Below, piece by piece: positions 12,732-33,910 of a stretch of DNA of 36,687 nt (position 1 is its first letter; every line of letters starts with the position of its first letter). This DNA is from Opitutaceae bacterium. GTDB lineage: Bacteria; Verrucomicrobiota; Verrucomicrobiia; Opitutales; Opitutaceae. The position numbers and the translations under genes are program-made. Under the pieces are notes generated by a model, which was given only the letters and a program-made list of their open reading frames with translations, had not been told where the DNA came from and searched no databases. Where the stretch lies: positions 1-36,687 of the forward strand of contig JACSRI010000101.1 in assembly GCA_014879845.1 (NCBI GenBank), read 5' to 3'.

Positions 12732-12743
12732 TTCGATCCCACC

Positions 12744-15248: not shown

Positions 15249-15321
15249 CCGAGCTCTCACGCTGCGCCCGACTGTCCGCATGACCCCGCGCCCTCACGTC
15301 GGTCCGCACCGGAATCCACGA

Positions 15322-15365
15322 TTGACATCCCCAAATCAGACCCAACGGTGATTTAACGACAAATC
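15322..15365 (+). promoter_or_regulatory. Putative operator and promoter element for the sugar symporter
   Basis: GATTTAACGACAAATC (15350-15365) is a near-palindrome with perfect GATTT/AAATC arms, flanked by wider arms GGTGAT (15347-15352) and ATCACC (15367-15372). Its core is 13/14 identical to the element before the TonB receptor at 18436-18449. TTGACA (15322-15327) resembles a -35 box, but no good -10 box stands at 16-18 bases, so the promoter itself is uncertain. The element lies 35 bases before the symporter ATG and is AT-rich in a GC-rich setting. Confidence 0.5.
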
Positions 15366-15400
15366 GATCACCCCAGAACGCCTCAGTTCCCCATACTCCC

Positions 15401-17029
15401 ATGAGCGAGCCCGCGTCCCATTCACCTGCACCTTCGGTCCCTCGGAGCCAGACCGCCCCCGAGGACAAGGTCCCAGTCATCCAGAAGGTCGCCTACGGCC
15501 TCGGCACCACGTTGGACATGTGGGGCAATTGGCTCTACCCGGGCTTGATCTGGATCGTGTTCAACATCGCGCTCGGCGTGCCGCCGTGGCTGGTGAGCAC
15601 GGCGCTGATGCTCAACCGCCTGTTCGACGCGGTCTCCGATCCTCTTTTCGGCTGGCTCTCCGACAACACGCGCACGCGCTGGGGGCGGCGGCGACCCTAC
15701 ATCCTGGTCGGGTCGATCGCCGCAGGCATCTGTCTTCCGTGCTTGGTGTGGGTGTCTCCGGGCTGGGGGTCGACAACGCTCTTCGGCACCGTCATCCCGA
15801 ATTACTTCTGGTACATGGTCGTGTCCTCGGCCATCTACATCACGATCGTGAGTTGCTTCAACGTCCCGTGGCAGAGCCTCGGCGCCGAACTCACGCCGGA
15901 CGTGCACGAGCGCACCAGCGTCTTCACCTACAAGACGGCGCTGCAGAAACTGCCCGAGATCGGTCTGTTCGCCGGCGCCGCCTTCTCGACCTCGACAGTC
16001 TGGGCGGGCGCGACCCGGGAAAACGCGGGTGAGCGTTTCCTGCTCATGTTCGAGCGCGCCGGCACGTGGTTTGCCGATGTCTTTGGCGCCCTGTTCTCCT
16101 TCGAGTTCGGACGTCTCCCCGCCCTGCTCGGCAATGCCTTTGGCTGGGCCACGCCGACCGAGGGCGAGGTCAATCAGATCCTCGGGGCCCAGGTCTACAC
16201 GATGCTGCTCGGGGCGATCATGGTGCTGGTCGGCATCTTCGTCTTCGCGACGGTCAAGGAGCGCTATTACCACTCTGTCACCGAGCGCAAGCAGGAGAAG
16301 GTGCGCATCCGCGAGACCATCTGGGAGGTGCTCAAGTGCCGCCCCTTCCGCGCCAATCTCGCCATGGCCTTCGCCTACGCCATGGGCACGGCGATGGTCG
16401 GCACGCTCGGTTATTACGCCACGGTCTACTACGTCTGCAAAGGGAACGTCTCCGAGGGTTCCGTATGGAATTTCTGGATGGGCGCGTCGAACTCCGTGCT
16501 CGGCCTGGTCGGCGTGGCGGCGTTCGCCCTGATCGCCCATCGCCTGGGCAAGCGCGGCGCGATGGCGTGCGTGCAGGTGGCGGCCATCGCGGTGTTCATC
16601 GCCACGTGGTGGCTCTATACGCCGGATATCGTCTGGCTGCAGATCTTTGCGTCGGGGCTGATCGCGTTCACCGGCGCAGGCTTCTGGATGCTCTACGGCT
16701 CGATCGGCGCCGACATCATCGATTACGACGAACTCGAATACGGCAAGCGCCGCGAGGGCGCCTTCACGGCGTGCGGCAGCTGGATCATGAAGGTCGGCCA
16801 GGCCGTCGGAATCGGGGCCTCGGGCTACGTGCTCTCCGCCACCGGTTTTGACTCCGCCCTCGGTGCCAACCAGTCGCCGGAGGCGATCTGGAACATCCGC
16901 TTCTATCTCGCGGCGATTCCGGTCGTGGGTCTCAGCATCGCACTGATCATGCTCGCGCGCTTCACGCTCACGCAGCAGCGGTCGCTCGAGATCCGCGCCG
17001 CGCTCGAAGCCCGCCGCGGCAAGGTCTGA
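15401..17029 (+). CDS. GPH-family (MelB-like) sugar:cation symporter
   Basis: This 542-residue, multi-spanning inner-membrane protein begins with a hydrophilic N-terminus (about 1-28). The GPH/MelB signature is clear: RLFDAVSDPLFGWLSDNTRT then RWGRRRPYI (about 73-101), and FNVPWQSLGAELTPDVHERT in the first half; DIIDYDELEYGKRREG lies late in the second half. It should bring oligosaccharides or sugars from the periplasm into the cytoplasm with a cation. It is about 75 residues longer than the related symporter at 32423-33823, mainly through an insertion at about residues 197-262. It follows the cytoplasmic mannoside enzymes and precedes the regulator; a hairpin follows its stop. Confidence 0.9.
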   Translation: MSEPASHSPAPSVPRSQTAPEDKVPVIQKVAYGLGTTLDMWGNWLYPGLIWIVFNIALGVPPWLVSTALMLNRLFDAVSDPLFGWLSDNTRTRWGRRRPYILVGSIAAGICLPCLVWVSPGWGSTTLFGTVIPNYFWYMVVSSAIYITIVSCFNVPWQSLGAELTPDVHERTSVFTYKTALQKLPEIGLFAGAAFSTSTVWAGATRENAGERFLLMFERAGTWFADVFGALFSFEFGRLPALLGNAFGWATPTEGEVNQILGAQVYTMLLGAIMVLVGIFVFATVKERYYHSVTERKQEKVRIRETIWEVLKCRPFRANLAMAFAYAMGTAMVGTLGYYATVYYVCKGNVSEGSVWNFWMGASNSVLGLVGVAAFALIAHRLGKRGAMACVQVAAIAVFIATWWLYTPDIVWLQIFASGLIAFTGAGFWMLYGSIGADIIDYDELEYGKRREGAFTACGSWIMKVGQAVGIGASGYVLSATGFDSALGANQSPEAIWNIRFYLAAIPVVGLSIALIMLARFTLTQQRSLEIRAALEARRGKV

Positions 17030-17047
17030 CCTCGGCTCGCCCTGCGC

Positions 17048-17081
17048 GAACCGTCCACGCGCGCCAGCGCCGGGACGGTTC
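17048..17081 (+). terminator. Possible terminator hairpin after the symporter
   Basis: GAACCGTCC (17048-17056) is perfectly complementary to GGACGGTTC (17073-17081), with a 16-base GC-rich loop. It begins 18 bases after the symporter stop. The following bases (TCACGTTTCTGG) form only a weak T-rich tail, so intrinsic termination would be inefficient. Confidence 0.4.
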
Positions 17082-17112
17082 TCACGTTTCTGGACCGGGC
17101 CAACCGACGCCC

Positions 17113-18327
17113 GTGCATGCAACCGAGTCGACACCCCGGCGCGAGCCACCATCGTCCCACGCCGTGAGACCGCAGGTGTTGCTCGTGTTCATGACCCGCT
17201 TCGAGGAGTGCAACGCGATGCTCCAGGGCATCGCGCACTACGAGCGGTCCCACAGCCCGTGGGCCGCATTCCTCGACGACGAGGCGCGCTCCGAGCACGA
17301 CCCGCGCTGGCTGCGCAGCAACAAGTGGCATGGCGTGATCAGCCGTCATACCACACCCGGCCTCGTCCAGACCTGCGCCGAACTCGGCCTGCCGCTCGTC
17401 GACGTCAACGACACGCCGCCGTTTCCCGGCATCCCCAAGATCCGCCCCGACAACGTCGCGGTCGGCCACCTCGGCGCCGAGCATTTCGTCGAGCGCGGCT
17501 ACCGGCATTTCGCCTTCTGCGGGTTCACCAACGACGCCTGGGCCTGCGAGCGGCGCGACGGTTTCGTCGAGGGCCTGCGGCTCGCGCACCACAGCTGCGA
17601 CGTGTTCGACGTGGAGTATCCCGGCGACCTCACGCCCTTCTGGGATGCCAAGCAGACGACGACGCTCAGCGCCTGGCTGCAGAGCCTGCCCAAGCCTGTC
17701 GCGGTCATGGCCTGCAACGACATGCGGGCTCTCCAGGTCATCGCGGCGGCCCAGGCGGCCGACCTGCTCGTGCCGGAGGAGGTCGCCGTGCTCGGCGCGA
17801 ACAACGACACCAACCGCTGCGACCTCGCCTACCCGCCGCTCTCCAGCGTGGCGACCAACTCGTTCCAGTCCGGCTACCGGGCAGCCGAGACACTCGCCGC
17901 ACTCATGGCGGGTGACCGCGACCACCAGGTTGACACGCGGATCGACCCCGTCGGCGTCGTGACGCGGCATTCCACCGACATCCTGGCCATCGATGACAAG
18001 AACGTCGCCGCGGCGCTGAGTTTCATCCGCGAAAACGCCTGCCGCGGCATCACCGTCGACCAGGTCCTGCGCCACGCCTACGCCTCGCGCAGTCAGCTCG
18101 AGAAGAAGTTTCGCCGCTACCTCGGCCGCTCGCCCCAGGCGGAGATCCGGCGCGTGCAGGTGGCCAAGATCCGGCAGCTGCTTTTCGAGACGGATTTTCC
18201 GCTCAAGAAGATCGCCGAACTCACCGGGTTCGAGCACGTCGAATACATGTGCGTCGTGTTCAAACGACTGACGGGTGAGTCGCCGGGCGGGTATCGCAAG
18301 AAGACGCAAACGCATCCGGGCAACTGA
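17113..18327 (+). CDS. XylR-type regulator: periplasmic-binding-protein fold plus AraC helix-turn-helix
   Basis: A GTG at 17113 gives 404 residues; a GTG at 17164 (VRPQVLLVF) is an equally plausible start. Residues about 20-275 form a LacI/periplasmic-binding-protein-like ligand domain: VDVNDTPPFPGIPKIRPDN, HFAFCGF, VMACNDMRALQVI, and VAVLGANNDTNRCDLAYPPLSSV. The C-terminus (about 295-398) is an AraC-type double helix-turn-helix (VDQVLRHAYASRSQLEKKFR and IAELTGFEHVEYMCVVFKRL, then GESPGGYRK). This architecture is that of E. coli XylR, where a sugar converts the protein to an activator binding direct repeats near the -35 box. It lies between the symporter and the receptor and is the natural candidate to control both. 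The ligand is not known; a mannose-derived sugar is inferred from context. Confidence 0.92.
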   Translation: MHATESTPRREPPSSHAVRPQVLLVFMTRFEECNAMLQGIAHYERSHSPWAAFLDDEARSEHDPRWLRSNKWHGVISRHTTPGLVQTCAELGLPLVDVNDTPPFPGIPKIRPDNVAVGHLGAEHFVERGYRHFAFCGFTNDAWACERRDGFVEGLRLAHHSCDVFDVEYPGDLTPFWDAKQTTTLSAWLQSLPKPVAVMACNDMRALQVIAAAQAADLLVPEEVAVLGANNDTNRCDLAYPPLSSVATNSFQSGYRAAETLAALMAGDRDHQVDTRIDPVGVVTRHSTDILAIDDKNVAAALSFIRENACRGITVDQVLRHAYASRSQLEKKFRRYLGRSPQAEIRRVQVAKIRQLLFETDFPLKKIAELTGFEHVEYMCVVFKRLTGESPGGYRKKTQTHPGN

Positions 18328-18485: not shown

Positions 18486-18686
18486 TGGCGTTAAATCGGG
18501 TAAATCCCGACCTCCCCTCTCACCCGACTTACCTCGTCTCGGCGAATTGCCCCATCGTTTCGTCCATCGCTCTACCTCGAGCCATGCGTGCGACCGCGAC
18601 TCGCCCAAATCCATTTCCCGTACGGAGTCCCACTGGGAGTCCGGCCGCGAAAGTCAGAACACAGATACCCAATACCTCTAAGCCTA

Positions 18687-21600
18687 ATGAAAAAACAGAC
18701 GCTAGCTGAGTTGCTGCGCGCACCCCTGTGTTGCGCAGCTCTTTGGTTCTCGTTCGCGGCGACCGAAGCCGGAGCGCAGACCACATCGACCGGCGCCGAC
18801 GCCTCGAGCGCCAGCACACCCACCGCGACTCCGGAGGCCGCCCCAGAGGACGAGGCCGTTGTCGTGCTCGACCCGTTCGTCGTTTCCGCGCAGGAAGACG
18901 AAGGTAGCTATCGGGCGACCAGCACCCTCGCTGGCAATCGCATTCGCACCGACCTGAAAGACGTCGGAGCCTCCATCAGCGTCGTGACGACCGAGTTCCT
19001 CAAAGACACAGGTGCCACGAACAACGAGTCGCTGCTCCAATACACGACGAGCACTGAAGTAGCTGGTGTTGCCGGAAATTTCGCCGGCTTGGGCAACGGT
19101 AACGTCCTCGATGATACCGCCCAGCGCATGGCTCCCCACGAGTCCACGCGCGTTCGAGGACTCGCGGCCGCAGACAATACGCGCGATTTCTTCCTGACCG
19201 ATATCCCCTGGGATTCGTACAACGTAGGCCGCATCGATCTGCAGCGCGGACCGAACGCCATTCTCTTCGGCTTCGGTAGCCCAGCAGGAATCATCAACGG
19301 TTCGGTCAACGGCGCCTCGTTCGAGACCGGCGGCAACGTCGAGTTCCGCATCGGAAGCTACGGTTCATACCGCGTCTCGTTGGACGCCAATGTCGCGATC
19401 ATCCCAGATGAACTCGCGGCGCGAGTCGCGATCCTGGAAGACAACGCCCAGTATCGTCAGGACCCGGCCTACAACGACGATGGGCGCATCTACACTGCTC
19501 TGCGCTATGATCCGAAGTTCCTCCGTTTCGAAGGCGCCCGGACACAGTTCAACCTGAAGTATGAGAAGGGAAACATTGAGGCAAACCGACCGCGCATTCT
19601 ACCCCCTGGCGACCTGATTACGCCATGGTGGTCCCGACAGGATCTCAACGATATCCGTGTGGCAGGCGGCCTCAATCCCCTCACCGTCGGGCTAAACGAC
19701 AGCGCGACGATCGCAGCAGCACGTGCTGCAGGTGATCTGGGGGCAGGCGTCCGTGGCGACAACTCGGCCTACTACAATCGAAAGATCGGCGCGTTCGGTC
19801 GCAACTATGGTGGCGTCGTAGCCGTGTTTCCGGATGCGCGCAGCGAAAACAGCTACCTGCAGTACACGGAACTGTCGAAGGACGTCACTTCAGTGATCAA
19901 GTCCGTGCCGTGGACGATCATGTCAGGTGTCACTCCCAGAAGCGTACTCGAGGGAACAGTCCAAGAAGTGCCGAACTCCGACTTCTATAAGGACGAGCGA
20001 CTCCGCGATCGCACGATCTTCGACTTCTACAACAACCTCCTCGACGGACCGAACAAGCACGAGTGGTCGAACTTTGACGCCTTCAACGTCGCCCTCTCCC
20101 AGACATTCCTCGACAACAAGTTCGGCTTCGAACTGGCCTACGACGACCAGACCTACGATCGCGGCCAGACGAATCTGGCCTCCGACTTCGGTCAATCAAT
20201 CACGCTCGACATGAACAACCACCTTGTCGACGGGTCGGTCAACCCGAACTACGGCCGAGCAGTGATCGTTTCCGACCAGTACCAGAACAACATCTACAAG
20301 TCATGGCGCGAAGCCAAGCGTGCCACCGCGTTTCTCGATCTGGACGCCAAGGACTACCTCGGTGACAGCTTCTTGGGGAAGCTGCTCGGCCGCTCCGTCA
20401 TCACCGGCCTTCTGAGCCAGGAAGAGGCCCAGATTGAGCGACGCAACTGGTTCCGCTACGCCGCTGACCTGAACTATGGACTCGAGGTGCTCGACGACCC
20501 GGTTCTGCGCAACCGGACCGTGAACACGATGAACTACCTGTCCGACTCCATCGCGGATCGCGCGACGATCTCCGGAGCCGGTATCGGACGCATCTACGCC
20601 CGGCAGATTCCGCAGGGTGGCCCTCTCAGGAACTTCAGCACGGAGTGGACGGCGACCAACGTGAGCCCGACTGACCCATGGGTGAATCCATACGGCCAGA
20701 CGGTCACTCAAGTCGAGAATCCCGCCAACTATCTCGGCTGGGCGGGTCCTGACTACCCGCTGACTCTGATCAGCGATGCCGCAGGTCAGCGCGACGAACT
20801 CACCGTTGGCGCCGAACTCAACAAATCGATCACCGACTCCTATGCTGGCAACTGGCAGATGTACATGTTCGACGGCGTCTTCGTGCCGAGCTACGGCGTC
20901 CGCATTGACAAGCAGAAGTACTACGCGATGCCGAGCGCGCCGCTCTTCGTTGGAAGCGACGTGATCCCCACGGAGACGGTCAACCTCGACCCGGCGGTAT
21001 TCCGTCTGCCCGACGATCCGACATTCGAAAAGTCCAGTCGTTCGGAGAGCATCAGTCTCGTCTTGCACACACCGAGAGCCATTCAGGAACGCATGCCGTG
21101 GAACACCGGCCTGTCGGTGTTCTACAACAAGTCCGAGAATGTGGATCCGGCGGCGGGCCGAGTTGACATCAATGGCAACCCGCTCGAGTCACCCAACGGC
21201 GAAACCGAAGAGTACGGCTTCGTGATCAACACGCTCGATGGCAAGGTCACCTTCCGGGCTACCTACTATGAGACGACCGTCCGGAACGCCGCTTTGGACA
21301 ACTTTGGCGGCACCTACATGATCTGGGGCGCTGAGGCGTGGGCCCAATCATTCGCATGGGCCAATCTCCAGCGCGGCCGCTCGGGTGGCTGGGCGGACTT
21401 CACCAACGGGTACGATCCCACCGGTATCGTCGCCATGAACACGCCTGCCGATGGTTGGTCCGACGCAGACATCCTGCGGGCGCAGCAGGTCGGTGACGCC
21501 ATCTCTCAGGCCTACTTCGATACCGCCCTTGATGACTCATGGTACCAGCTCTGGAACATCAATGTCGCCTCATTGGAGGACGTGCCTCCCAACTCCAACA

Positions 21601-22346
21601 CGCCATTCCTCACAGGCACGCAGCCTCCCGGTCTGACGATCACGGGCGACACCTACTCCGAAGGCTACGAGTTTGAGCTCATGGCCCAGCCCATCTCCGG
21701 GTTGAATCTCTCGATCAACGCCACCAAGACCGAGGCCATGCGTATGAACATGGCTCAGTCACTGGTCGATTGGGTCGAAGAGCGCTGGGCCACCTACAAC
21801 ACGCCCGTCATGCTCAACGGCCAGCAGGTCGGAGTCATCGGTGATGTGCGTTTCTGGAACGGCGGATACAGCCCGGGCGAGTCGCTGAAGGGCAAGTTCG
21901 GTCGCGAGTTCATGGGACCATACTGGCTCTACCGCATCCAGGAAGGCTCGAGCGTCCCCGAACTCCGTGAATGGCGCTTCAACGCCGTCGCCAACTATTC
22001 GTTCGGCGAAGGCGTGTTGCGCGGTTTCAACATCGGCGGCGGCTTCCGCTGGCAAGACAAGCAGATCGTGGGATATCCGGTGCTCCCGGGTGCCACGGTT
22101 GACGACCCGCGTGCGTTTGACCTCGAGAATCCGTATATGGGACCGAGCGAAAGCAACTTCGACTTGTGGGTCGGCTACAACCGCCAGATCACCGAGAAGA
22201 TCGACTGGCGCATCCAGCTCAACATCCGCAACCTCTTCGCGGACGAAAGCCTGATCCCGGTCACGGTCCAACCCGACGGATCGCCAGCCGTATCGCGCAT
22301 TCCAGACCTCACCACCTGGACACTCACGAACACATTCTCGTTCTGA
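18687..22346 (+). CDS. Large TonB-dependent outer-membrane receptor (1219 aa)
   Basis: The ATG at 18687 (MKKQTLAELL) starts a clear signal peptide ending near AGAQ; upstream codons are non-coding leader. After a low-complexity Thr/Ala/Ser stretch comes VVVLDPFVVSAQED, the likely TonB-box region. The plug domain (about 75-210) has NRIRTDLKDVGASISVVTTE, RVRGLAAADNTRDFF, and RIDLQRGPNAILFGFGSPAG. The rest forms a long barrel ending in an aromatic residue (TLTNTFSF), as required for outer-membrane insertion. It should import a ligand, probably manno-oligosaccharide, using TonB/ExbBD energy. At 1219 residues it is larger than the second receptor. No SusD-like lipoprotein gene follows. Its codon use is slightly less GC-rich than its neighbours. 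It has its own promoter and a strong terminator. Confidence 0.94.
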   Translation: MKKQTLAELLRAPLCCAALWFSFAATEAGAQTTSTGADASSASTPTATPEAAPEDEAVVVLDPFVVSAQEDEGSYRATSTLAGNRIRTDLKDVGASISVVTTEFLKDTGATNNESLLQYTTSTEVAGVAGNFAGLGNGNVLDDTAQRMAPHESTRVRGLAAADNTRDFFLTDIPWDSYNVGRIDLQRGPNAILFGFGSPAGIINGSVNGASFETGGNVEFRIGSYGSYRVSLDANVAIIPDELAARVAILEDNAQYRQDPAYNDDGRIYTALRYDPKFLRFEGARTQFNLKYEKGNIEANRPRILPPGDLITPWWSRQDLNDIRVAGGLNPLTVGLNDSATIAAARAAGDLGAGVRGDNSAYYNRKIGAFGRNYGGVVAVFPDARSENSYLQYTELSKDVTSVIKSVPWTIMSGVTPRSVLEGTVQEVPNSDFYKDERLRDRTIFDFYNNLLDGPNKHEWSNFDAFNVALSQTFLDNKFGFELAYDDQTYDRGQTNLASDFGQSITLDMNNHLVDGSVNPNYGRAVIVSDQYQNNIYKSWREAKRATAFLDLDAKDYLGDSFLGKLLGRSVITGLLSQEEAQIERRNWFRYAADLNYGLEVLDDPVLRNRTVNTMNYLSDSIADRATISGAGIGRIYARQIPQGGPLRNFSTEWTATNVSPTDPWVNPYGQTVTQVENPANYLGWAGPDYPLTLISDAAGQRDELTVGAELNKSITDSYAGNWQMYMFDGVFVPSYGVRIDKQKYYAMPSAPLFVGSDVIPTETVNLDPAVFRLPDDPTFEKSSRSESISLVLHTPRAIQERMPWNTGLSVFYNKSENVDPAAGRVDINGNPLESPNGETEEYGFVINTLDGKVTFRATYYETTVRNAALDNFGGTYMIWGAEAWAQSFAWANLQRGRSGGWADFTNGYDPTGIVAMNTPADGWSDADILRAQQVGDAISQAYFDTALDDSWYQLWNINVASLEDVPPNSNTPFLTGTQPPGLTITGDTYSEGYEFELMAQPISGLNLSINATKTEAMRMNMAQSLVDWVEERWATYNTPVMLNGQQVGVIGDVRFWNGGYSPGESLKGKFGREFMGPYWLYRIQEGSSVPELREWRFNAVANYSFGEGVLRGFNIGGGFRWQDKQIVGYPVLPGATVDDPRAFDLENPYMGPSESNFDLWVGYNRQITEKIDWRIQLNIRNLFADESLIPVTVQPDGSPAVSRIPDLTTWTLTNTFSF

Positions 22347-22391: not shown

Positions 22392-22401
22392 ACTCACTCG
22401 A

Positions 22402-22431
22402 GGCGCCGGAATGAGTTCCGGCGCCTTTTTT
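22402..22431 (+). terminator. Rho-independent terminator of the TonB-dependent receptor gene
   Basis: GGCGCCGGAA (22402-22411), loop TGAG, then TTCCGGCGCC (22416-22425) and six T residues (22426-22431). This is a textbook intrinsic terminator, the clearest in the window, and indicates that the receptor is transcribed separately from the lipoprotein-TPR-GH5 group downstream. Confidence 0.93.
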
Positions 22432-22581: not shown

Positions 22582-23889
22582 ATGTCCTTCAGAAGCAGCA
22601 CACGCCGCCACCTCTGGTGCACAACCCTTCTCGTCTCGTCCGCGGCCATCGTCCTGGCCGGATGCGATCCCGCAAGTTCGTCCAAACCACGGACCTCCTC
22701 GGGCACACGCACGGTACGGCACCAGGCCGTGGACCGCACGGGATATCTTCGTCCGGAAGCGGTGGGTGCAGCGATCGCCGCCCCGCCATGGATCGCGCAC
22801 CTCACCCCCGTGGATCTGGACCGCGACGGGCGTCTGGACCTGATCGGATGCGAATCTCAAGAGAACCGCATCTTCTGGCTGCGGCAGGCGTCGCCTGGGC
22901 GCTACGAGGAAGTCACCGTTGGCACCGATCTGCTCGCGCCGGTCCATGTGGAGGCGGCCGACATGGACGCGGATGGCGATCTCGATCTGCTCGTGTCGCT
23001 GATGGGCTACGTCTTCCCCAACAACGACAAGATCGGCTCGGTCGTCATCCTCGAAAACGACGGGAGCCAACACTTCGCCCCGCACGTCGTCCTTGACCAC
23101 ACCTCGAGAGTCACCGACGTCCGCGCCGGAGACTTCAATGAGGACGGACGCATGGATCTCGCCGTCGGCCAATTTGGCTATGACCAGGGCGAAATCCGGT
23201 GGCTGGAACAGACCTCCCCCTGGCAGTTCAAGGAACATGTGCTCCTTGAACTCTCCGGGGCCATCAACGTACTGGTCGCCGACTTCAACGGAGACCGTCG
23301 CCTGGATATCGTCGCGCTGATATCCCAGCAATGGGAGGAAATCTACTTCTTCGAAAACACCGGTGGCGCGTTCAGGTCGAAACGCATCTGGGGATCGACG
23401 AACGAGGACTACGGCAGCAGCGGCATCTACCTCACCGACCTCAACAACGACACGCGGCCCGACATCCTCTATACCAACGGCGACGGTTTCGGGCCTGCGG
23501 CCCTTCCCGGGCCACGTCCGTGGCACGGCGTCCAATGGCTCGAGAACACCGGCGGCGGATTCTTCCGCTATCACCGCATCGGCGACCTGCCGGGTGCCTA
23601 CAGCCCCGTCAGCGTGGACCTGGACCAGGACGGACATCTCGACGTTGTCGCGGTCTCCGCCTACTCGGACTGGGACAAGAAGAACCCGCGCGTCGTATCC
23701 ATGATGTGGTTTCGCAACGACGGCCGCTTCAACTTCGAGCCGCAGATTCTCGCCTACGCGCCCAAGGACCTGATCACACTGGCGGTCGGCGACTTCGACG
23801 GCGATGGCTCTCCCGTGCTCGCCACGGGCGGGTTCTACATCTTCGCACCGCACATCAACATGGGACGGATCACGCTCTGGCGGCGCTGA
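22582..23889 (+). CDS. FG-GAP/VCBS-repeat lipoprotein (predicted seven-bladed beta-propeller)
   Basis: The ATG at 22582 gives 435 residues beginning with a lipoprotein signal; the lipobox is VLAGC with Cys28 as the lipidated residue. Seven acidic loops of the DxDxDGxxDL type follow at roughly even spacing: VDLDRDGRLDL, ADMDADGDLDL, GDFNEDGRMDL, ADFNGDRRLDI, TDLNNDTRPDI, VDLDQDGHLDV and a final GDFDGDGSPVL. Such loops bind calcium and usually cap the blades of integrin-like propellers. The protein is probably anchored in the outer membrane. It lies 13 bases upstream of the TPR gene, so the two are surely co-transcribed. In a locus without SusD it may be the glycan-capture partner or a scaffold; this is inference. 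Confidence 0.85.
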   Translation: MSFRSSTRRHLWCTTLLVSSAAIVLAGCDPASSSKPRTSSGTRTVRHQAVDRTGYLRPEAVGAAIAAPPWIAHLTPVDLDRDGRLDLIGCESQENRIFWLRQASPGRYEEVTVGTDLLAPVHVEAADMDADGDLDLLVSLMGYVFPNNDKIGSVVILENDGSQHFAPHVVLDHTSRVTDVRAGDFNEDGRMDLAVGQFGYDQGEIRWLEQTSPWQFKEHVLLELSGAINVLVADFNGDRRLDIVALISQQWEEIYFFENTGGAFRSKRIWGSTNEDYGSSGIYLTDLNNDTRPDILYTNGDGFGPAALPGPRPWHGVQWLENTGGGFFRYHRIGDLPGAYSPVSVDLDQDGHLDVVAVSAYSDWDKKNPRVVSMMWFRNDGRFNFEPQILAYAPKDLITLAVGDFDGDGSPVLATGGFYIFAPHINMGRITLWRR

Positions 23890-23902
23890 GCCCCTCGCGC
23901 AC

Positions 23903-25336
23903 ATGGGAAAGAAGACTCTCCTCGCAGGCATCCTCGTCTGCCTCGCCGCGGCCATCGCCGTCGGCACGATCGCGTGGCGCGCGCGCCAAAGAGCCGCCAT
24001 CCTGGCCGCGGCCCTGCCCGATCGCCCCGATCTCTCGGCGTGGGCGCCCGAGTTGGCCGCCCGGATCACATCCTGCGAGACGCGCGTGCGCGAGCGCACC
24101 GACCCGATCAGCGCGCTCGGCGAGTTGAGCCGGCTCTATCATGCCAACGGCTTCCTGCCCGAGGCGTCCCACTGTTACGGCGCGCTCACCGTCCTCGACC
24201 CGGCCAACGGCCGCTGGGCCTATCGGGATGCGATCATTCTATCCGGTTTCGGCGAAAATGAACCGGCCATCGAGCGTCTGCGCCAGGTGCCGACCCGGCC
24301 GGTTGACTACGTCCCGGCGCGTCTGCGCCTGGGCGAGACGCTCCTGAAGGTGGGAAACATCGACGACGCCATCGGCGTGTATCGGGCGATCCTCGAAACC
24401 CACCCCAAGGAATCCTACGCCCTGCTCGGGTTGGCGCGATGCGACATCGAGCGCGAGCGATGGCAGGACGCCCGCGAGAAACTGGAGAGACTTGTCGACC
24501 AAACGAACTACATGCTCGGATATGACTTGATCGTCTCCGTGTACGAACGGCTTGGCGAGACCGCCCGCGCGGCCGCGATTCGCGGCCAGATGAGGGCCTG
24601 GGGCGCCTTTCGAGACATGCTGGACCCCTGGATGGAGGAACTGCTGGAAGACAGCTACGATCCCTACCAGTTGTCCCTGGCCTCAGGCGCGGCGGCGCGG
24701 CGGCCGGACCATGCCCTCGCTCTGCGTCGGCTCGAGCGCGCCATCACCCTCGCCCCCGAGACGGCCGCCCTGCGCTTCCAACTCGCGAGCCTTCTCCTGG
24801 AGCGCAAGGAGTACGTCAAAGCGCGGGAGCAGTTCGAGCGTTGCACCCAGCTCGCCCCCAAGTTCGCCGACGGATGGGCCCACCTGAGCGGCCTTCTCGC
24901 CACTGTCGGTGACCGCGCCGGGGCCGACCGTATCCTCGAGGAGGGACTGCGCAACTGCCCGGACTCCCCGGGTCTGCACATGATGAACGGCCACCGCCTA
25001 AAGAGAATCGGACGCTTGGAGGAGGCCATCGCCGAATACAGACGATCCATCGAACTCCGGCCGACCGAAGCCGACGCCTACATCGAACTCGGCACGACAC
25101 TGATCGGTGCAGGGCGAAGTGCGGAGGGCATCAGCGTCCTCGAATCAGCTCTTGTAGCCGAGCCCCAGCATCCATTCATCGTCTGCACGCTCGCGTTGCA
25201 TGCGATCGAACAGCGCGACGAGGCCGCCGCGCGGAAATGGATCGAACAGGCCAGACTTCAGCCGAGGGTAAAACCGGTCGACATGAAGCAGGTCACGGAG
25301 GCGTATTCGGCGACTTTCGGTCGCAGAGCGCCTTGA
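23903..25336 (+). CDS. Membrane-anchored TPR-repeat protein
   Basis: The ATG at 23903 gives 477 residues. An N-terminal hydrophobic helix (about 5-24, LLAGILVCLAAAIAVGTIAW) followed by Arg residues suggests an inner-membrane anchor with the bulk in the periplasm. The remainder is helical, with tetratricopeptide repeats: AIGVYRAILETHPKESYALL, LRFQLASLLLERKEYVKARE, FADGWAHLSGLLATVGDR, AIAEYRRSIELRPTEADAYI, and SVLESALVAEPQHP. TPRs act as protein-binding scaffolds. Close coupling with the FG-GAP lipoprotein upstream suggests a two-membrane complex. The GH5-like gene follows after 112 bases. No enzymatic motif is seen. Confidence 0.85.
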   Translation: MGKKTLLAGILVCLAAAIAVGTIAWRARQRAAILAAALPDRPDLSAWAPELAARITSCETRVRERTDPISALGELSRLYHANGFLPEASHCYGALTVLDPANGRWAYRDAIILSGFGENEPAIERLRQVPTRPVDYVPARLRLGETLLKVGNIDDAIGVYRAILETHPKESYALLGLARCDIERERWQDAREKLERLVDQTNYMLGYDLIVSVYERLGETARAAAIRGQMRAWGAFRDMLDPWMEELLEDSYDPYQLSLASGAAARRPDHALALRRLERAITLAPETAALRFQLASLLLERKEYVKAREQFERCTQLAPKFADGWAHLSGLLATVGDRAGADRILEEGLRNCPDSPGLHMMNGHRLKRIGRLEEAIAEYRRSIELRPTEADAYIELGTTLIGAGRSAEGISVLESALVAEPQHPFIVCTLALHAIEQRDEAAARKWIEQARLQPRVKPVDMKQVTEAYSATFGRRAP

Positions 25337-25448: not shown

Positions 25449-27584
25449 GTGCGCGTGTCATCGATAGCCGGCATCGCCAGAAGCCGATCCTTCGCACTTC
25501 GGGTCGCAGGCATCACAGCCGTACTCGCGCTGCTCTCCGTGCGCCTCACCGGCGCCCCCGTCGCCTTCGAGTTCGCCCTGCAGGACGACTCCGCGTCCGG
25601 GACGGCTCTCGCACGCGAGATCTTCGCCGACGTGGTCGCCCCCGACGGCACGACGGTGCGCCTGCCAGCCTTCGTCTCCGGACCAGGCCGCTGGACCGTC
25701 CACGCCCGCGCGGACCAGTCCGGCGAATTCCGGCTCGGCCACGTCGGCGAATGGGTCGACGGGACCGAGCGCGAACTCGCGGCGCGACCCGCCTCCGCCG
25801 CGACACGCACGGTTGCGCACCCGCAGGGCCGCCCGGCGATCGTGCGCCCGGCGGACGACCCGACGCGCCTCGCACTGGCCGACGGCGCGATCTACACGCC
25901 GATCGGCGCAAACCTCGCGTGGACCACCGGCGAGCGGGTGCGCTGGCACGAAGAAGCCTTCCGCGAATTCGCCACGCATGGCCTGAACTGGACGCGCATC
26001 TGGATGTGCCATTGGGGCGCGATGAATCTCGACTGGCTGCCCGAGGACATGGGCCCGTCGCCCGCGCCCGGCCAGGTGGATCCACGCATCGCCCATAACT
26101 GGGACCGCGTGCTCGCCGCCGCGGAGAGGCACGGCATCTACGTGCAACTGGTGCTGCAGCACCACGGCCAGTATTCCTCGACGGTGAATTCGAACTGGGC
26201 GTCCAATCCGTGGAACGCCGCCCATCCCGGCGGTTTCCTCAGGTCCCCCGGCGAGTTTTTCACCTCGCCGCGGGCGATCGCGCTCACGAAGCAGAAATAT
26301 CGCTATATCGTCGCGCGCTGGTCGCACTCGCCCGCGATCCTCGCCTGGGAGCTCTTCAACGAGGTCCACTGGACCGACGCCTACCGCCACGAGCGCGACG
26401 AGGCCGCCGTCGCCGCCTGGCACGCCGAGATGGCCGCCTACCTGCGCGCCATCGACCCGTATCATCATCTCATTACGACGAGCCTCGAGGACCTGCGCAG
26501 CCCGATCTACGCGGCGATGGACTACCTGCAGCCGCACCTCTACGCCATCAACATGCTCACCGGCGTGCGGGAGTTCGAGCAGCCGTTTGACTCGCTCGAT
26601 CGTCCGATCTTCTACGGTGAGATAGGCGACGACAAACTCGCGCTCACGCCCGAGGAAAAGTCCGCCGGCAGCGGGCTCGTGCCCCAGGTCTGGGCCAGTC
26701 TCATGGGTCCGGGTCCGAGTCCCGCGCAGAGCTGGCTCGGCGAGGCCTTCCTGCGCACCGGGCGAGTCGGCGAACTCGGCGCCGTCGCGCGCTTCCTGCG
26801 CGAAACCGGCCTCGCGACTCGCGCGGGCCTTGTCCCGTTCTCACCGGCCGTCTCCGGGCCGGGCACGAGGCCCTTGCGCATCATTCCCGGATACGACTGG
26901 GCGACCCACCGCTCCGCCACCGAAACGATCCCGCTCGATGGCAGCGACAGTCTCGCCGCGAACCATGTGCCAGGCATCCTGGTCGGCAATCCGCGCAGCA
27001 TCGCCGAGGGTTACCTGGCCGAGTTCACCCTCCATCTTGACATGCCTCGCGACACCGACGCGACGATTGCTTTCGCCGACGGCGGCGCGCGCGGCGCGGC
27101 CGCCTCGATCCTCGTCGACGGACGTGAAGTCGCGTCGCACCGCTGGGCGCGCCTACCCGGGACGAGCGAGGACGGCCCGCAACCACCCGACACGCCGGAG
27201 CGTCCCGCCGCGCTCAGCTTCCCGCTGACAGCCGGCCGGCATGCGATCACGATCCGCAACACCGGCGGTGCAGACTGGATACGCCTCGGCCATATCGATC
27301 TGGGGATCGAATCGCCCGTGATCGCCGCAGCCGGCAAGCGCGGGACGGATTTCATCGCCCTCTGGGCTTGGAACAAACGCGGCGTCCACGCGGCCACGCC
27401 GGCCAATCCGGCCACCGCGACGCTGCTCCTCGAGGATGTGCCCGCCGGCACCTGGATGGTCACGTGGTGGGACGCCGATCGCGGCGTGCCTCAACCCTCC
27501 GACCGCATCGACCACGCGGGCGGCACGCTACGCCTCGCGACGCCAGCGATCGCACGCCACGCGGCCGTGACGTTGATCCGCTGA
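25449..27584 (+). CDS. Secreted GH5-like glycoside hydrolase with N-terminal DUF5060-like domain
   Basis: A GTG at 25449 gives 711 residues. A hydrophobic segment (about 16-34) forms a signal peptide. Residues 37-105 (FEFALQDDSASGTALAREIF, GPGRWTVHARADQSGEFRLG) resemble the DUF5060 beta-sandwich that often precedes GH5-type barrels. The barrel (about 145-470) has FATHGLNWTRIWMCHWG, IYVQLVLQHHGQYSS, acid/base Glu305 in LAWELFNEVHW, and nucleophile Glu391 in IFYGEIGDD. C-terminal beta domains follow, one with carbohydrate-binding character (ATIAFADGGARGAAASILVDG). The likely job is to cut beta-mannan or a related beta-glycan outside the cytoplasm; specificity is inferred from GH130 and beta-mannosidase neighbours. 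Its stop directly abuts the opposing gene's stop. Confidence 0.82.
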   Translation: MRVSSIAGIARSRSFALRVAGITAVLALLSVRLTGAPVAFEFALQDDSASGTALAREIFADVVAPDGTTVRLPAFVSGPGRWTVHARADQSGEFRLGHVGEWVDGTERELAARPASAATRTVAHPQGRPAIVRPADDPTRLALADGAIYTPIGANLAWTTGERVRWHEEAFREFATHGLNWTRIWMCHWGAMNLDWLPEDMGPSPAPGQVDPRIAHNWDRVLAAAERHGIYVQLVLQHHGQYSSTVNSNWASNPWNAAHPGGFLRSPGEFFTSPRAIALTKQKYRYIVARWSHSPAILAWELFNEVHWTDAYRHERDEAAVAAWHAEMAAYLRAIDPYHHLITTSLEDLRSPIYAAMDYLQPHLYAINMLTGVREFEQPFDSLDRPIFYGEIGDDKLALTPEEKSAGSGLVPQVWASLMGPGPSPAQSWLGEAFLRTGRVGELGAVARFLRETGLATRAGLVPFSPAVSGPGTRPLRIIPGYDWATHRSATETIPLDGSDSLAANHVPGILVGNPRSIAEGYLAEFTLHLDMPRDTDATIAFADGGARGAAASILVDGREVASHRWARLPGTSEDGPQPPDTPERPAALSFPLTAGRHAITIRNTGGADWIRLGHIDLGIESPVIAAAGKRGTDFIALWAWNKRGVHAATPANPATATLLLEDVPAGTWMVTWWDADRGVPQPSDRIDHAGGTLRLATPAIARHAAVTLIR

Positions 27585-30116
27585 TCACTCGAAGGTCAGC
27601 GCGATCGAATCCACCTCGATCGCACCGCCGCGTGCGCCCGCGTCCGCCTCAAGAACCAGCTGCACCTGCTGGACCTGTTCGAGCTGAAGCTTGTCCCCGG
27701 CGCCGCCGCGGCCTGCGGCCGCGGGAAGGTGCGTGTTCCATTCGCCCGGATATCCGACCGGGAGCTTGGAGCCGCCACCGAGGGTAAACTCCGACAGCGA
27801 GATCCGTTCGTCCCGCGCCCCGGATCGCAAGTGCAACGCATGGCTCCACGACGTGCCGTCGCCTTCGATGAACACCAGGGTCAACGTCGTGCCCTCGGCC
27901 TCGGCGTACACGCGCACCCGCACGTCCTGCGCCTCCCGGAGCGTGTCGAGCCGCCCTTGCACACGATCGCGCACCGACCACCCGATGCGCATGGGTGCGC
28001 CCTCTCCACTCCACCGCACCCGTGCGGGAAGACCGCCTTTGGCGGCTGCCAGCGTGACCGGCCATGGCGTGCCCCGCATGGCGCGCTGAGCGTGAAATAT
28101 CCGAGGAAAGTCCACCGCCGGCGCGAGCAGCACGAGTGGCTCGCCCGGGGCCGCGGCCCGAAGCGACCATGAGCCCTCGGCGGGCGCCCTCACGAAATCG
28201 CCGTCCGCCTCCACCGTGACAAACCACGCGATCCGCCCGGGGGCGTCGTCAAACGCAGCCCGATAGCGGTACCCGCGGTCGCGCGTCATCACGCGTTCGC
28301 GCCACGCTCCCGCGTCATCGTGCCGCGTATGCAGCAAGACACGACGCGGCTCGCTCGCGCTCACGACCTCGATCTCCCAGGGCAGAGTCGCCGAGTCCCG
28401 CGCGAGCTGTTCCGGTCCGAGGTGAGATACGATCTGCGGCGGAAGATCCGGCGACGGCGGGCAGACAAATTCGGTGAGGCCCACACGACCGACGCGTTCG
28501 GGAAGGTTCTCCGGCCGCGCGAGGCCCGCGCGCGTGAGCAGGTACACGCCTGGACGCACGGCGAATCGTCCATCCGCGGCCCCGGCCCGATGCGCATTGC
28601 CGGGATCCAGCGGCTCGACCGCGAACGTGCCGCCGAGGTCCGGCAGGTCGATCGTCATCGGCCATGTCCGCCAGACGAGGCGCGAGGAAATGGTGCGAAA
28701 GTTCTGCCGCTGGGCGAAGGGATCCTGCACCAGAATCGCATCAGGGTAGACTTCGAGGCGCCATGCACCGGCCTCGAGGCGATCGAGGAAGTACGCGCCG
28801 TTCCCCTCGTAGTCGACGACCGCCGAGCTGCCGCTCGCCGCGATGCGGCGAAGTCGTTCCGGGTACCTTGGCCTCTCGCGGCGGTCTCCCGCATGCATCC
28901 AAGTGTCCTCTGTCTCCATCCAGGCCACGCCGCCACTCTCCGCGTCTACGCCGAATGGTCCGAAGCGACAATTTTCCGGATACGCGCCATAGCGCTCCCC
29001 ACGCGGCAGCCGGCGCATCGCCTCGGCCGCGATCACCGCGCCGACGGCTTTCTTCGGCGAGTAGACGAGGTTGAGGAAATGCGTCTGCCACCCGAGGTTA
29101 TACGGCGCGGTGTCGAGCATGTCATAAGAAAACATGGTCGCGAACTGCGCCCCGACGCCGCGGAAGGTGCGCACCATCGCCGGATACATCGCAGGCGAAA
29201 GCGTATCCGCGGCGTCAAACTCATAGACGATGCGCGGCAGGCCCGCGATCTGCGGATCGTCCATCGGCGGATAGTCGTCGACCCAGCGCAGGAAGTTGTC
29301 GGTGAGCGTGCGTCCGGCAACGAGTGCGGTGGGATACCAGCCGAAGGAGACACCCTGCGCGCGCGACGCCTGGATCGGTGCAGCCATGCGGAAGTCCTGG
29401 CTGAGGTTGTGGAACAGGATCTTCTCGCAACCCGTGCTGCGCACGGCGTCCGCAAGCGCATTGATGTAGGCGACGGATCCGCCGAAGTCATCCGCGTGGT
29501 GCCACGGCTCGTTGATGAGTTCGACGAAGAGCAGCGCCGGCTCGTCCTTGAGCGCCACGCCCGTGTAGGGATTCACGTGCTCGAGGATCTGCCGCAGGTA
29601 GTTCGCCTGCGCGGCGATCGCCGCCGGATCGCGGCCCATCTGGTCGCGTGGGAAGTGCTTCGAGAATCCCTGGATATCGTCGCCGTCCTTGCCATCCGGC
29701 CACAGCGAGCTGTGTGTATGGATCGGCGTGAACAACATCGAGATCCCGCGCTGCTTCGCCTGGAAGAGCGCGTAGTCCATGAGATCGAGGTGATCGTTGG
29801 CGACGAGGTTGCCCTCGCGATCGGAGTTTTCCCAATCCCCCCAGATCGCGAGGCGCATGGCGTCCCAGCCCAGGCGCGCGAAGTGCGCCATGTCGCGCTC
29901 GATGAGACGCTTCCGGTCGACGCCGAGGTAACCGGCCGCGCGATAGTCGCTCGCCGAGGGCAGGCAATAGCAGGCGCCGAAGAGTGCGACCTCGCTGGCA
30001 TCCGCGCGCCAGCGGATCACGCCCACGTCGTCGAGATACACCGCTTCCTCGGCGACCCCGGGCGCGGTCACGGCCAAAGCCAGCACGATCGGCCCGAGTG
30101 CGGCGGCGAGTCGCAT
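27585..30116 (-). CDS. Secreted GH5-like glycoside hydrolase, 843 aa
   Basis: The ATG at 30116 starts a short signal peptide (MRLAAALGPIVLALAVTAPG, cleavage near VAEE). A barrel (about 40-390) contains RDMAHFARLGWDAMRLAIWG, SMLFTPIHTHSSLWPDG, acid/base Glu203 in LLFVELINEPWH, and nucleophile Glu299 in RIVYEFDAAD. The second half consists of beta-rich domains; the C-terminal ~150 residues (LTLVFIEGDGTSWSHALHL, QLEQVQQVQLVLEADAG) look like a carbohydrate-binding sandwich. It has no DUF5060-like N-terminus and differs clearly from the GH5-like enzyme on the other strand. It is last in the operon receptor, symporter, GH2, this gene, with a nine-base gap to GH2. Substrate not determinable; a beta-linked plant glycan is likely. 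Confidence 0.78.
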   Translation of the reverse strand: MRLAAALGPIVLALAVTAPGVAEEAVYLDDVGVIRWRADASEVALFGACYCLPSASDYRAAGYLGVDRKRLIERDMAHFARLGWDAMRLAIWGDWENSDREGNLVANDHLDLMDYALFQAKQRGISMLFTPIHTHSSLWPDGKDGDDIQGFSKHFPRDQMGRDPAAIAAQANYLRQILEHVNPYTGVALKDEPALLFVELINEPWHHADDFGGSVAYINALADAVRSTGCEKILFHNLSQDFRMAAPIQASRAQGVSFGWYPTALVAGRTLTDNFLRWVDDYPPMDDPQIAGLPRIVYEFDAADTLSPAMYPAMVRTFRGVGAQFATMFSYDMLDTAPYNLGWQTHFLNLVYSPKKAVGAVIAAEAMRRLPRGERYGAYPENCRFGPFGVDAESGGVAWMETEDTWMHAGDRRERPRYPERLRRIAASGSSAVVDYEGNGAYFLDRLEAGAWRLEVYPDAILVQDPFAQRQNFRTISSRLVWRTWPMTIDLPDLGGTFAVEPLDPGNAHRAGAADGRFAVRPGVYLLTRAGLARPENLPERVGRVGLTEFVCPPSPDLPPQIVSHLGPEQLARDSATLPWEIEVVSASEPRRVLLHTRHDDAGAWRERVMTRDRGYRYRAAFDDAPGRIAWFVTVEADGDFVRAPAEGSWSLRAAAPGEPLVLLAPAVDFPRIFHAQRAMRGTPWPVTLAAAKGGLPARVRWSGEGAPMRIGWSVRDRVQGRLDTLREAQDVRVRVYAEAEGTTLTLVFIEGDGTSWSHALHLRSGARDERISLSEFTLGGGSKLPVGYPGEWNTHLPAAAGRGGAGDKLQLEQVQQVQLVLEADAGARGGAIEVDSIALTFE

Positions 30117-30125
30117 GGGGAACCC

Positions 30126-32411
30126 CTACGCAAGCGCCGCGGATGCGGCCATGAGTTCGACTCGGCCCCAGGACTGACTGGCCGGCAACACCGCGGCGGC
30201 GGTCGCGTGAATCACGAAACCGCGCCCACCTGCCGGCACGCGCACGACAATGGACGCCACACCAGCCTCCGCCGCCACGGCCGTCGGCCCGACGATCGAA
30301 CCCTCGCCTTCGATTTCGAAGGTGACGTCGCGGTCTTCCCCGACGCAGAGCGTCCCGTGGCGGTCGACCAGGCGCGCGTGGGCGACCAGCACATCGGGCT
30401 CGTCCGCGCGCGGCAGGATGCCGAGGTCGTCGACGGCGATCTCGAGAACCGAAGGCGTCTCGGGCGTCCGTACCAGGTGTGTGGTGACAACCACGCCGTG
30501 CATGAAACCCGTCGCCTCCAGCACGCCGGGCGCAAAGTGCGACAGGTCGAAAACGAAGGGCGGATGCGGCAGGTGCTGGGTGTGCCACGTGAGGTCGGGT
30601 CGCCGGCGGCCGAGTGAATGGCCGTTGATCCGGAGTTGGACCTCCTCGCAGTTGCTGAACACGACCACCCGCAGGTCCGATGCCGCCGTCCAGTATGAGG
30701 CGACAAAGACAACCGGGCCGCCACTCCACGCGACCGCCCCTTCGTGCGGGTCGCGCTGGCTGCGGTAGAACCAATAGGAGAACTTCGGCAGCCGGAACAC
30801 GTCGGCCACGCCGACGGCGGCGCGCACGGGGTCGTAGCCGCGCGCGTAGTCGAACACCGCCCACTGGCCGTCCAGCGCGGCCGGCGAGCAGAGCGTGTCG
30901 TTGAGCGCCAGCGTGTGATTCCACGCCTGCTGGCGCAACGCGCGCTCACCCTCGCCGCGGAAGTGCCGGCTGTTGCTCCAGCGCGCGAGCACGCCGGCGC
31001 CGGTCTTCTGGTCGAATCCCTCGTTCGTGGCGTAGAACTCCCAATCGCCATACTCGGAGACGACGAGGGCCTTGTCGCCGTTTCCCCAGGTGTGGATGCG
31101 CCCGTGCTGGCGCGCGTGCACGAAGACGTCGTAGCGGTCGATCCACCCGCAGGTGAACATCTGGTCGCCCGGGTACTCCTCGTGGCCGGCCGAGTGCAGG
31201 CGCGCCATGAGCGCGTCGTCCATGGCGGTCTCATTGAGCGAGAGTTCCCAGAGCACGACGCAGGGATGGTTGCGATCGCGCCGGATGAGCACGCGGGCGT
31301 CGCGCACGCACAAGTCCTGGAACTTCGCGCCGCCCACGAACTGCCAGCCCGGAATCGCGTTCATCACCACGATGCCGAGCTCGTCGCAGGCATCGAGGAA
31401 GTGCGGTGACTGCGGGTAGTGTGACAGACGCACGTAGTCGAAGCCCGCCTCCTTGATCAGACGTACATCGCGATACTGGGCGGCCCGCGGTGCGGCATAC
31501 CCGACTCGTGGATACTCCTGGTGACGGTTGGTGCCGCGCAGGCGCAGGCGGCGGCCGTTGATGACAAATCCACCGGCGCGCGAGAACGCGATGCGCCGCA
31601 CGCCGAACCGCTCGATCCGCTGGTCCAGCACGAAACCCTCGGCATGACGCACCGTGACGCGGGCGCGATGGAGGTTCGGCGCGTCCGGGCTCCACAACCG
31701 GGGGCGCACCAGCGCGATCTCCTCCGTCACATGCGCGGCCGCCCGCCCTGCAAGCTCGAGGGGCGACTCGACCCGGGCCACCGTCGTGTCGCCATCGAGG
31801 ACCTCCACGGCGACGACGATCCGGACGGCCTCGCCGCCGGAGTTGCGCACATGCGTCTGCACCGCGATCGTCGCGCCCTCTGGTCCGAGCGAGAGCGTGC
31901 GCACGAAGACGCCCCCGCCGCCGACCTCGCCCGCACCGACGGGATCGGTGATGTGGATCGGCGGACGCACACGCAGCTCCACGGAGCGGTAGAGTCCGCC
32001 GTACCAGCAGAAGTCGAGATCCTCGAGGGGCTTGCCCGGCGGCACGTCAGGGGCGTCACGGTTGTCGAGCCGCAGCGCGACCGTGCAATGCCCGGCGCCC
32101 GGCGTCACCGGCAGCTCAACCTCAAACGGCAGATAACCGCCCTCGTGACGCGCGACCTCGCGCCCATCGACGAGGACACGGGCAGTGTGCATCGCCGCAC
32201 CGACGACAAGGACATGGCGCGCACCGGCCGCCGCGCCGGGCAGCTCGACCGTCCGGCTGTATTCACATTCACCGCACCAGTGATCATGCCCGTCGAGATC
32301 CGCGACAAAGGGCGTGTGCGGCAGGTCGACCTCGGACCACGCCTCGGCCGTGCCATCGGCGCGGAGGCGCCGAAACGTCCAACCGCGATCCAGTGAAATC
32401 GTCTGCGTCAT
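30126..32411 (-). CDS. GH2 glycoside hydrolase, probably beta-galactosidase-like (cytoplasmic)
   Basis: This 761-residue protein has no signal peptide. An N-terminal sugar-binding jelly-roll (LDRGWTFRRL, DLPHTPFV, HEGGYLPFEVELP, WYGGLYRSVELRV) is followed by an Ig-like domain (about 155-270). The barrel carries RLRGTNRHQEYPRVGY, DYVRLSHYPQSPHFLDACDE, acid/base Glu394 in LWELSLNETAM, and nucleophile Glu453 in LVVSEYGDWEF. C-terminal sandwich domains complete the GH2 layout. The NRHQEYP and SHYP motifs point to beta-galactosidase relatives rather than beta-mannosidases; beta-galacturonates or other beta-glycosides remain possible. It is separated by 11 bases from the symporter upstream and by 9 from the GH5-like gene downstream, so it is co-expressed and probably hydrolyses what that symporter imports. 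Confidence 0.85.
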   Translation of the reverse strand: MTQTISLDRGWTFRRLRADGTAEAWSEVDLPHTPFVADLDGHDHWCGECEYSRTVELPGAAAGARHVLVVGAAMHTARVLVDGREVARHEGGYLPFEVELPVTPGAGHCTVALRLDNRDAPDVPPGKPLEDLDFCWYGGLYRSVELRVRPPIHITDPVGAGEVGGGGVFVRTLSLGPEGATIAVQTHVRNSGGEAVRIVVAVEVLDGDTTVARVESPLELAGRAAAHVTEEIALVRPRLWSPDAPNLHRARVTVRHAEGFVLDQRIERFGVRRIAFSRAGGFVINGRRLRLRGTNRHQEYPRVGYAAPRAAQYRDVRLIKEAGFDYVRLSHYPQSPHFLDACDELGIVVMNAIPGWQFVGGAKFQDLCVRDARVLIRRDRNHPCVVLWELSLNETAMDDALMARLHSAGHEEYPGDQMFTCGWIDRYDVFVHARQHGRIHTWGNGDKALVVSEYGDWEFYATNEGFDQKTGAGVLARWSNSRHFRGEGERALRQQAWNHTLALNDTLCSPAALDGQWAVFDYARGYDPVRAAVGVADVFRLPKFSYWFYRSQRDPHEGAVAWSGGPVVFVASYWTAASDLRVVVFSNCEEVQLRINGHSLGRRRPDLTWHTQHLPHPPFVFDLSHFAPGVLEATGFMHGVVVTTHLVRTPETPSVLEIAVDDLGILPRADEPDVLVAHARLVDRHGTLCVGEDRDVTFEIEGEGSIVGPTAVAAEAGVASIVVRVPAGGRGFVIHATAAAVLPASQSWGRVELMAASAALA

Positions 32412-32422
32412 GGGAATAGCGC

Positions 32423-33823: not shown

Positions 33824-33869
33824 CGTGCTCCAGGGTGTGAACTCACTCTGTCTCAGGCGGGGGCTTGGA

Positions 33870-33910
33870 TTCCGGGTAGGGACGCCTCGCTGAGGCATCC
33901 CTACCCGGAA
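33870..33910. repeat. Long composite hairpin between receptor and symporter genes
   Basis: TTCCGGGTAGGGA (33870-33882) is perfectly complementary to TCCCTACCCGGAA (33898-33910). Inside, GCCTC-GCT-GAGGC (33884-33896) forms a second perfect stem. It occupies the 97-base gap after the receptor stop (33921) and before the symporter start (33823). There is no T-tract. It may cause partial termination or mRNA stabilisation, giving more receptor than downstream protein. Its GTAGGG and GCCTCG parts echo the dispersed repeat at 7644 and 12719. Confidence 0.65.

Follow-up and report, generated by a model that had tools for sequence, protein, structure and literature searches.

Several described systems resemble, in one respect or another, the gene pair analyzed here. 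In the SusC/SusD pairs of Bacteroidota, a tethered extracytoplasmic protein is encoded beside a TonB-dependent receptor. In Escherichia coli, the propeller lipoprotein BamB, with PQQ-like blades, and YfgM, a periplasmic tetratricopeptide repeat (TPR) protein with one helix, are encoded side by side and act in outer-membrane protein biogenesis. Aldos-2-ulose dehydratase, which consists of a propeller and two cupin domains, belongs with integrin alpha and CRTAC1 to the VCBS/FG-GAP propellers. The DNA stretch studied here (the window) comprises 36,687 nucleotides of contig JACSRI010000101.1 from an Opitutaceae bacterium (GenBank assembly GCA_014879845.1). It encodes a seven-bladed FG-GAP propeller lipoprotein and, 13 bases behind the propeller stop codon, a TPR protein with a single N-terminal helix. 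An earlier, sequence-only reading had placed this pair downstream of a TonB receptor and proposed it as a substitute for SusD; open reading frames (ORFs), Pfam matches, lipobox and helix all agree with the arrangement. The architecture is that of BamB/YfgM, a propeller lipoprotein beside an inner-membrane TPR protein, although the window propeller has FG-GAP rather than PQQ-like blades and the likeness is an analogy only. As in SusC/SusD pairs, a tethered extracytoplasmic protein is encoded beside a TonB receptor, here in a sugar locus; however, the pair has no SusD match, its TPR protein is helix anchored, a hairpin lies in between, and in other loci a receptor is often absent nearby. The propeller shares with the VCBS/FG-GAP proteins its seven blades, calcium-type A-B loops and strong fold matches, but it is a stand-alone lipoprotein with a dedicated TPR partner and lacks cupin, ASPIC/UnbV and integrin domains.

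The two genes form a real, conserved and co-evolving unit. The propeller was found in 43 of 150 genomes of the family (E <= 1e-20), so the window gene is no chance ORF. In a first set, made of 60 fetched regions and a second copy from the window's own genome, the next gene on the same strand encoded a TPR protein in 60 of 65 copies; the two ORFs overlapped in 30 of the 60 measured pairs, by exactly 4 bases in 22, and lay within 63 bases of each other in 54. A scan of named genomes, which partly repeats the first set, kept 80 loci, 72 of them with a downstream TPR match. After removal of near-identical copies, 119 propellers remained, from a mix of complete loci and short contigs in which the absence of a partner understates its presence, and of the 117 copies having a next gene, 105 were followed on the same strand by the TPR gene. 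A few loci, such as L129 and L160, show the reversed order. Genomes may carry up to six copies of the pair; the window's own genome holds a second one on C156 (50% and 31% identity), as well as a TPR relative without a propeller on C183.

Propeller and TPR identities were correlated (r = 0.81; 102 pairs), a value reached in none of 1,000 shuffles. When TPR partners were swapped only among paralogues, in the nine genomes with three or more copies, the observed r of 0.72 was reached in none of 500 swaps. Because the swaps never leave a genome, a common history of the species is no explanation for the co-evolution, and the coupling of the two genes asserted in the sequence-only reading is borne out. 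In addition, a single 793-residue ORF in the acidobacterial class sample (L200:7222-9603) fuses TPR repeats to a propeller of the pair's family, 38% identical to the L175 propeller. From the co-evolution and this natural fusion we infer that the two proteins may bind each other. Searches of one open paper library returned no description of the pair or of its function; to this extent the suggestion of an undescribed system stands, whereas the SusD-like role attached to it, weighed below, is unsupported.

The propeller protein was matched by the Pfam family FG-GAP_3 over six stretches (7.4e-44). Its AlphaFold2 model, built on an alignment of 65 relatives (mean predicted local distance difference test [pLDDT], 90.3; predicted TM-score, 0.87), has seven blades, the last of them closed by the N-terminal strand. 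All seven A-B loops are of the calcium type, but the seven DxDxDG loops previously counted are reduced to four exact ones; of the other three, one reads DxNxDG (DFNEDG) and two lack the glycine (DFNGDR and DLNNDT). With these repeats, blades and loops, the window protein qualifies as a VCBS/FG-GAP beta-propeller. The closest solved structure by fold was the propeller of aldos-2-ulose dehydratase (Z score, 33.8; root-mean-square deviation, 3.1; 358 residues; Foldseek, 2.1e-12; weak sequence match, 7e-5), followed by LGI1 (Z score, 30.8), integrins (about 29 to 30) and CRTAC1 (29.6). The propeller might accordingly be read as an enzyme of the periplasm, perhaps a lyase or dehydratase acting on sugars or keto sugars, with the TPR protein as its membrane holder. 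Consistent with an enzyme, 93 positions, including motifs in non-calcium loops, are conserved alike in the whole set and in a clade linked to a redox-type membrane protein. Nevertheless, we regard this explanation as unlikely: the window protein is propeller only and, at 435 residues, too short for the two cupin domains of the dehydratase, and its genomic contexts are too varied for one sugar pathway. Its B-C loops are no better conserved than the calcium loops (mean conservation, 0.69 versus 0.71), and a single strongly conserved pocket on the top face was rejected as a candidate on the same values. According to the part of PMC8023676 available to us, one propeller superfamily takes in FG-GAP_3 (VCBS) proteins, aldos-2-ulose dehydratases, lectins and integrins; the dehydratase match agrees with that grouping and is no evidence of function.

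Next, the membrane attachment of both proteins was compared across the copies. Each protein of the pair carries a predicted membrane tether. Among the 119 propellers, a lipobox was seen in 72, a helix in 34 and no signal in 13, the missing signals being due in part to uncertain gene starts (those of L080-L101 come from a simple gene caller with no annotation behind them). The residue after the lipobox cysteine (position +2) was considered as a localization signal and rejected as uninformative, being Asp in the window and varied among the examples. Among the 105 TPR partners, 91 have a helix, 7 show no signal and 7 match a lipobox-like pattern; of these last, two or more (L078 and L147) may be chance matches inside a helix. 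Clear lipoprotein versions exist, for example in L083 and L148, and for this reason the TPR domain probably lies outside the cytoplasm; most copies would thus be inner-membrane proteins, unlike SusD. In the window TPR protein, several TPR motifs pass the Pfam cut-offs (best match, 1.9e-23), SusD is absent from the 23 Pfam families matching at E <= 0.01, and no SusD chain occurs among the best 60 of 504 PDB matches. The transmembrane helix also sets this protein apart from SusD as a surface lipoprotein.

The proposal that the pair replaces SusD, with glycan capture on the cell surface by the propeller and the TPR protein as its scaffold on the TonB receptor, has real observations behind it. Of the 18 proteins called in the window, 15 were scanned with Pfam (all but 1289-1969, 2366-2785 and 7092-7577), and none of these matched a SusD family, in agreement with the earlier statement that the receptor has no SusD. 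The window is a sugar locus in its own right, with GH130, GH2 and major facilitator superfamily genes, and sugar-binding lectins are among the VCBS-type propellers in the available part of PMC8023676. In seven genomes, a receptor of the window type lay within 10 kb of at least 16 of 26 copies, against 1.4 to 1.5 expected. The other 10 had no listed receptor within 10 kb, six of them lying more than 100 kb away, although the listing lacks the weakest matches and receptors may be undercounted. For these numbers, high-scoring segment pairs of receptors were merged by rule in one count and secondary pieces removed by eye in the other, and a weak propeller match (G109; 29% identity) was excluded beforehand. 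In the non-redundant set, a receptor lay within 9 kb of 50 of 119 copies, a lower bound given the short contigs; of the 113 copies with a called upstream gene, 21 had a receptor immediately before them on the same strand. Receptor and propeller identities correlated at r = 0.88 in 18 receptor-adjacent loci.

The nearness of pair and receptor is therefore real, as the sequence-only reading supposed, but it is labile. The receptor label requires 25 changes on the propeller tree, at least 15 of them forced; the well-supported set that holds the window (25 rows) contains 5 receptor loci, 7 copies beside complex I genes and 13 others. In 139 of 153 comparisons, the propeller showed better conservation than the receptor beside it (median, 0.52 versus 0.30), the reverse of what is expected of a substrate-specific capture protein. 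In addition, the window has a hairpin of 12 pairs followed by a T-run between receptor and pair (-22.8 kcal/mol; z = -4.26), and a strict hairpin test was positive at 18 of the 21 junctions with a receptor upstream, the window included. The same test was negative behind the cupredoxin gene described below (0 of 8), behind other same-strand genes (0 of 50), at divergent junctions (0 of 34), at propeller-TPR junctions (0 of 105) and in random segments (0 of 1,500). Within 250 bases 3' of the TPR gene it was also negative (0 of 99), and the pair's own transcript end was not seen. A looser terminator scan gave one site in 3.6 kb against a shuffle average of 1.4 and would not by itself single out the hairpin; the claim rests on the strict test and on the folding z value. 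TonB receptors in general may carry such 3' hairpins. Receptor and pair, though adjacent, are probably separate transcripts and would differ in this from the single SusCD transcript.

Neighbors were pooled from 31 of the 50 receptor loci and from 40 of the 59 remaining loci, without 3 of the 85 and 3 of the 109 proteins listed. The pools included few sugar-related families: sulfatase (4) and GH43 (2) with a receptor, and GH43 (2) without. These counts cover the commonest 25 of 84 and 25 of 93 families, so that single sugar-enzyme matches could escape. Judged by the condition that the sequence-only reading had set for itself, a pair lying mostly apart from glycan genes, its proposal is largely refuted. 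Together with the missing SusD match, a TPR protein that is usually helix anchored and so not at the cell surface, the copies beside complex I or redox genes, and the position of the pair behind a redox-type membrane protein in other phyla, these results make a SusD substitute very improbable.

The propeller is patchily distributed: it was present in 10 of the 288 genomes sampled from the phylum, and two further samples gave 5 of 85 and 5 of 200. Outside Opitutales, it may be preceded by a different protein of 614 to 670 residues with N-terminal cupredoxin-like and Fer4_5 polyferredoxin regions (NapH/NosR-like). Such loci (L180:5829-7787, L177, L175, L195-L198 and L223) carry the titles Desulfobacteraceae, Deltaproteobacteria and Candidatus Sulfopaludibacter, or belong to additional genomes of that order and class or to another family of Verrucomicrobiota. 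The domain matches are below the cut-offs: cupredoxin at 3.4e-4 at best, in one protein (Pfam), and NapH at 5e-6 (NCBIfam). A C-x3-C-x3-H stretch in the L180 protein is presumably CuA-site-like. The gene stands directly before the propeller on the same strand in eight loci and is divergent in L171, a metagenome-assembled genome titled Bacteroidales; its product occurs beside 9 of the 119 copies, all within one 11-row clade with a support of 100. Among the 85 genomes of the order-level set, 5 had a close homologue (at least 60% identical) and 5 had the propeller; 4 had both.

This association, together with seven Opitutales copies near complex I genes, could mean that the original job of the pair was electron transfer or metal-site assembly with the cupredoxin/4Fe-4S protein, and that the Opitutales copies keep a related redox role. 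In the available part of PMC12758564, CRTAC1-annotated FG-GAP genes sit in hydrazine-synthase-like clusters, with homologues reported in Opitutus terrae. There too, an FG-GAP protein is encoded beside redox-enzyme genes, but it is annotated as CRTAC1, and that part of the report mentions no TPR partner. We consider a redox role quite unlikely, because the cupredoxin/4Fe-4S protein was not found in any of the 12 Opitutales genomes searched, the window's own included; because the acidobacterial L175 protein lacks the cysteines that are the putative copper ligands; and because the complex I neighbors are divergent and confined to one part of the tree.

Two other partners emerged from the same seven genomes. 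An ASPIC/UnbV FG-GAP protein of about 1,100 to 1,200 residues lay within 10 kb of 18 of the 26 copies (0.76 expected; maximum of 4 in 500 draws), a linkage at least as strong as that to the receptor. ASPIC/UnbV was also the commonest non-pair family among the pooled neighbors, with 11 of 82 proteins in receptor loci and 12 of 106 elsewhere. A membrane protein of about 800 residues (C4) lay near 10 of the 26 copies (0.40 expected); in turn, of 26 C4 cases, 24 had an ASPIC/UnbV protein nearby and at least 21 a receptor. Pfam scans of three C4 proteins yielded nothing better than 0.03. However, the first 22 Foldseek matches of a C4 model (L078:14964-17375; pLDDT, 86.8) were AglB, STT3 and PglB chains, complexes so named, and DPY19, among them AglB (3wak; 5.7e-11; TM-scores, 0.54 and 0.51). 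The model thus predicts for C4 the GT-C membrane fold of the STT3/AglB/PglB oligosaccharyltransferases; there is no such protein in the window. The L078 protein was aligned with 12 relatives, and the window's own genome has such proteins on C156, C183 and C171. The WWDYG motif is absent from the 13-row consensus; to our knowledge, a WWDYG-like catalytic motif is also missing from the DPY19-type proteins of this fold. As separate observations, a membrane protein with a long TPR tail, which by eye we take to be TMTC-like, adjoins the pair and the STT3-fold protein in L085:12662-14986 and L099:431-2659, and an ATP-binding cassette (ABC) ATPase with an ABC-2 permease adjoins the pair in Acidobacteria and some Verrucomicrobiota (L175:3371-5655, L197:5318-7527, L068:9579-11866 and L078:3472-5741).

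As a more specific conjecture, the Opitutales pair might act as adaptor in a so far undescribed system that modifies or exports envelope proteins and whose parts are the TonB receptor, the large ASPIC/UnbV protein and the STT3-fold enzyme. The STT3-like enzyme would modify propeller proteins, the pair would escort these to the outer membrane, and the window would hold a reduced version tied to sugar use. We give this proposal only a small chance.

The reading that we favor, tentatively and at somewhat less than an even chance, is that the pair forms a two-part, membrane-tethered accessory complex outside the cytoplasm that is recruited by several envelope systems. The TPR protein would be a scaffold held in the inner membrane that binds an exported client protein, and the propeller would be a head recognizing that client or its ligand. 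As a general envelope accessory module, the pair may be recruited in Opitutales by clusters that combine ASPIC/UnbV propeller proteins with STT3-fold membrane proteins and TonB receptors, and by the cupredoxin/4Fe-4S membrane protein in Desulfobacterota and Acidobacteriota as well as in another family of Verrucomicrobiota. In the window, it would serve the sugar locus, where handling or maturation of envelope proteins seems likelier than a surface lid for glycan capture. Several points weigh against such a module. Scaffolding is a general property of the TPR fold and so no evidence; the client and the activity proposed are themselves inferred; the nearest solved propeller by fold is part of an enzyme, so the propeller could be catalytic; 36 of the 119 copies have no labeled partner within 9 kb, some of them at contig ends; and both the sugar genes of the window and the receptor-propeller correlation speak for the SusD-like role, since a dedicated receptor partner would yield the same correlation.

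The pair is of interest as a co-evolving envelope module, present in up to six copies per genome, without a described function in the open literature searched. It also exposes a neighborhood of TonB receptor, ASPIC/UnbV protein and STT3-fold protein open to testing as a single system, and it cautions that a lipoprotein encoded beside a TonB receptor in Verrucomicrobiota is not automatically the counterpart of SusD.

Table 1. The propeller-TPR pair and the elements upstream of it in the window.
Feature	Position	Strand	Basis
Propeller lipoprotein, seven-bladed FG-GAP/VCBS (435 residues; ATG start to end of stop codon)	22582..23889	+	Pfam; lipobox LAGC then Asp; model pLDDT 90.3; PDB fold match
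TPR protein, one N-terminal transmembrane helix	23903..25336	+	Pfam; helix; conserved propeller partner
Terminator-like hairpin then T-run, between receptor and pair	22400..22427	+	Similar element in 18 of 21 comparable loci
TonB-dependent receptor, directly upstream neighbor, probably transcribed separately; start not certain (18588 at the earliest)	18588..22346	+	Plug domain

The receptor ends 235 bases before the propeller start, and Plug is its sole Pfam match at E <= 0.01. To the right of the pair lie two large proteins (25449-27584 and 27585-30116) with no Pfam matches at that threshold, then GH2, MFS_2 and a second receptor; to the left, Pfam identified GH130, GH2, MFS_2, an AraC/LacI-like regulator and the TonB receptor. 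The locus is a sugar locus of the beta-mannoside type, spanning 7699-18327 and 25449-33898, and it also contains a weak alpha-amylase match.

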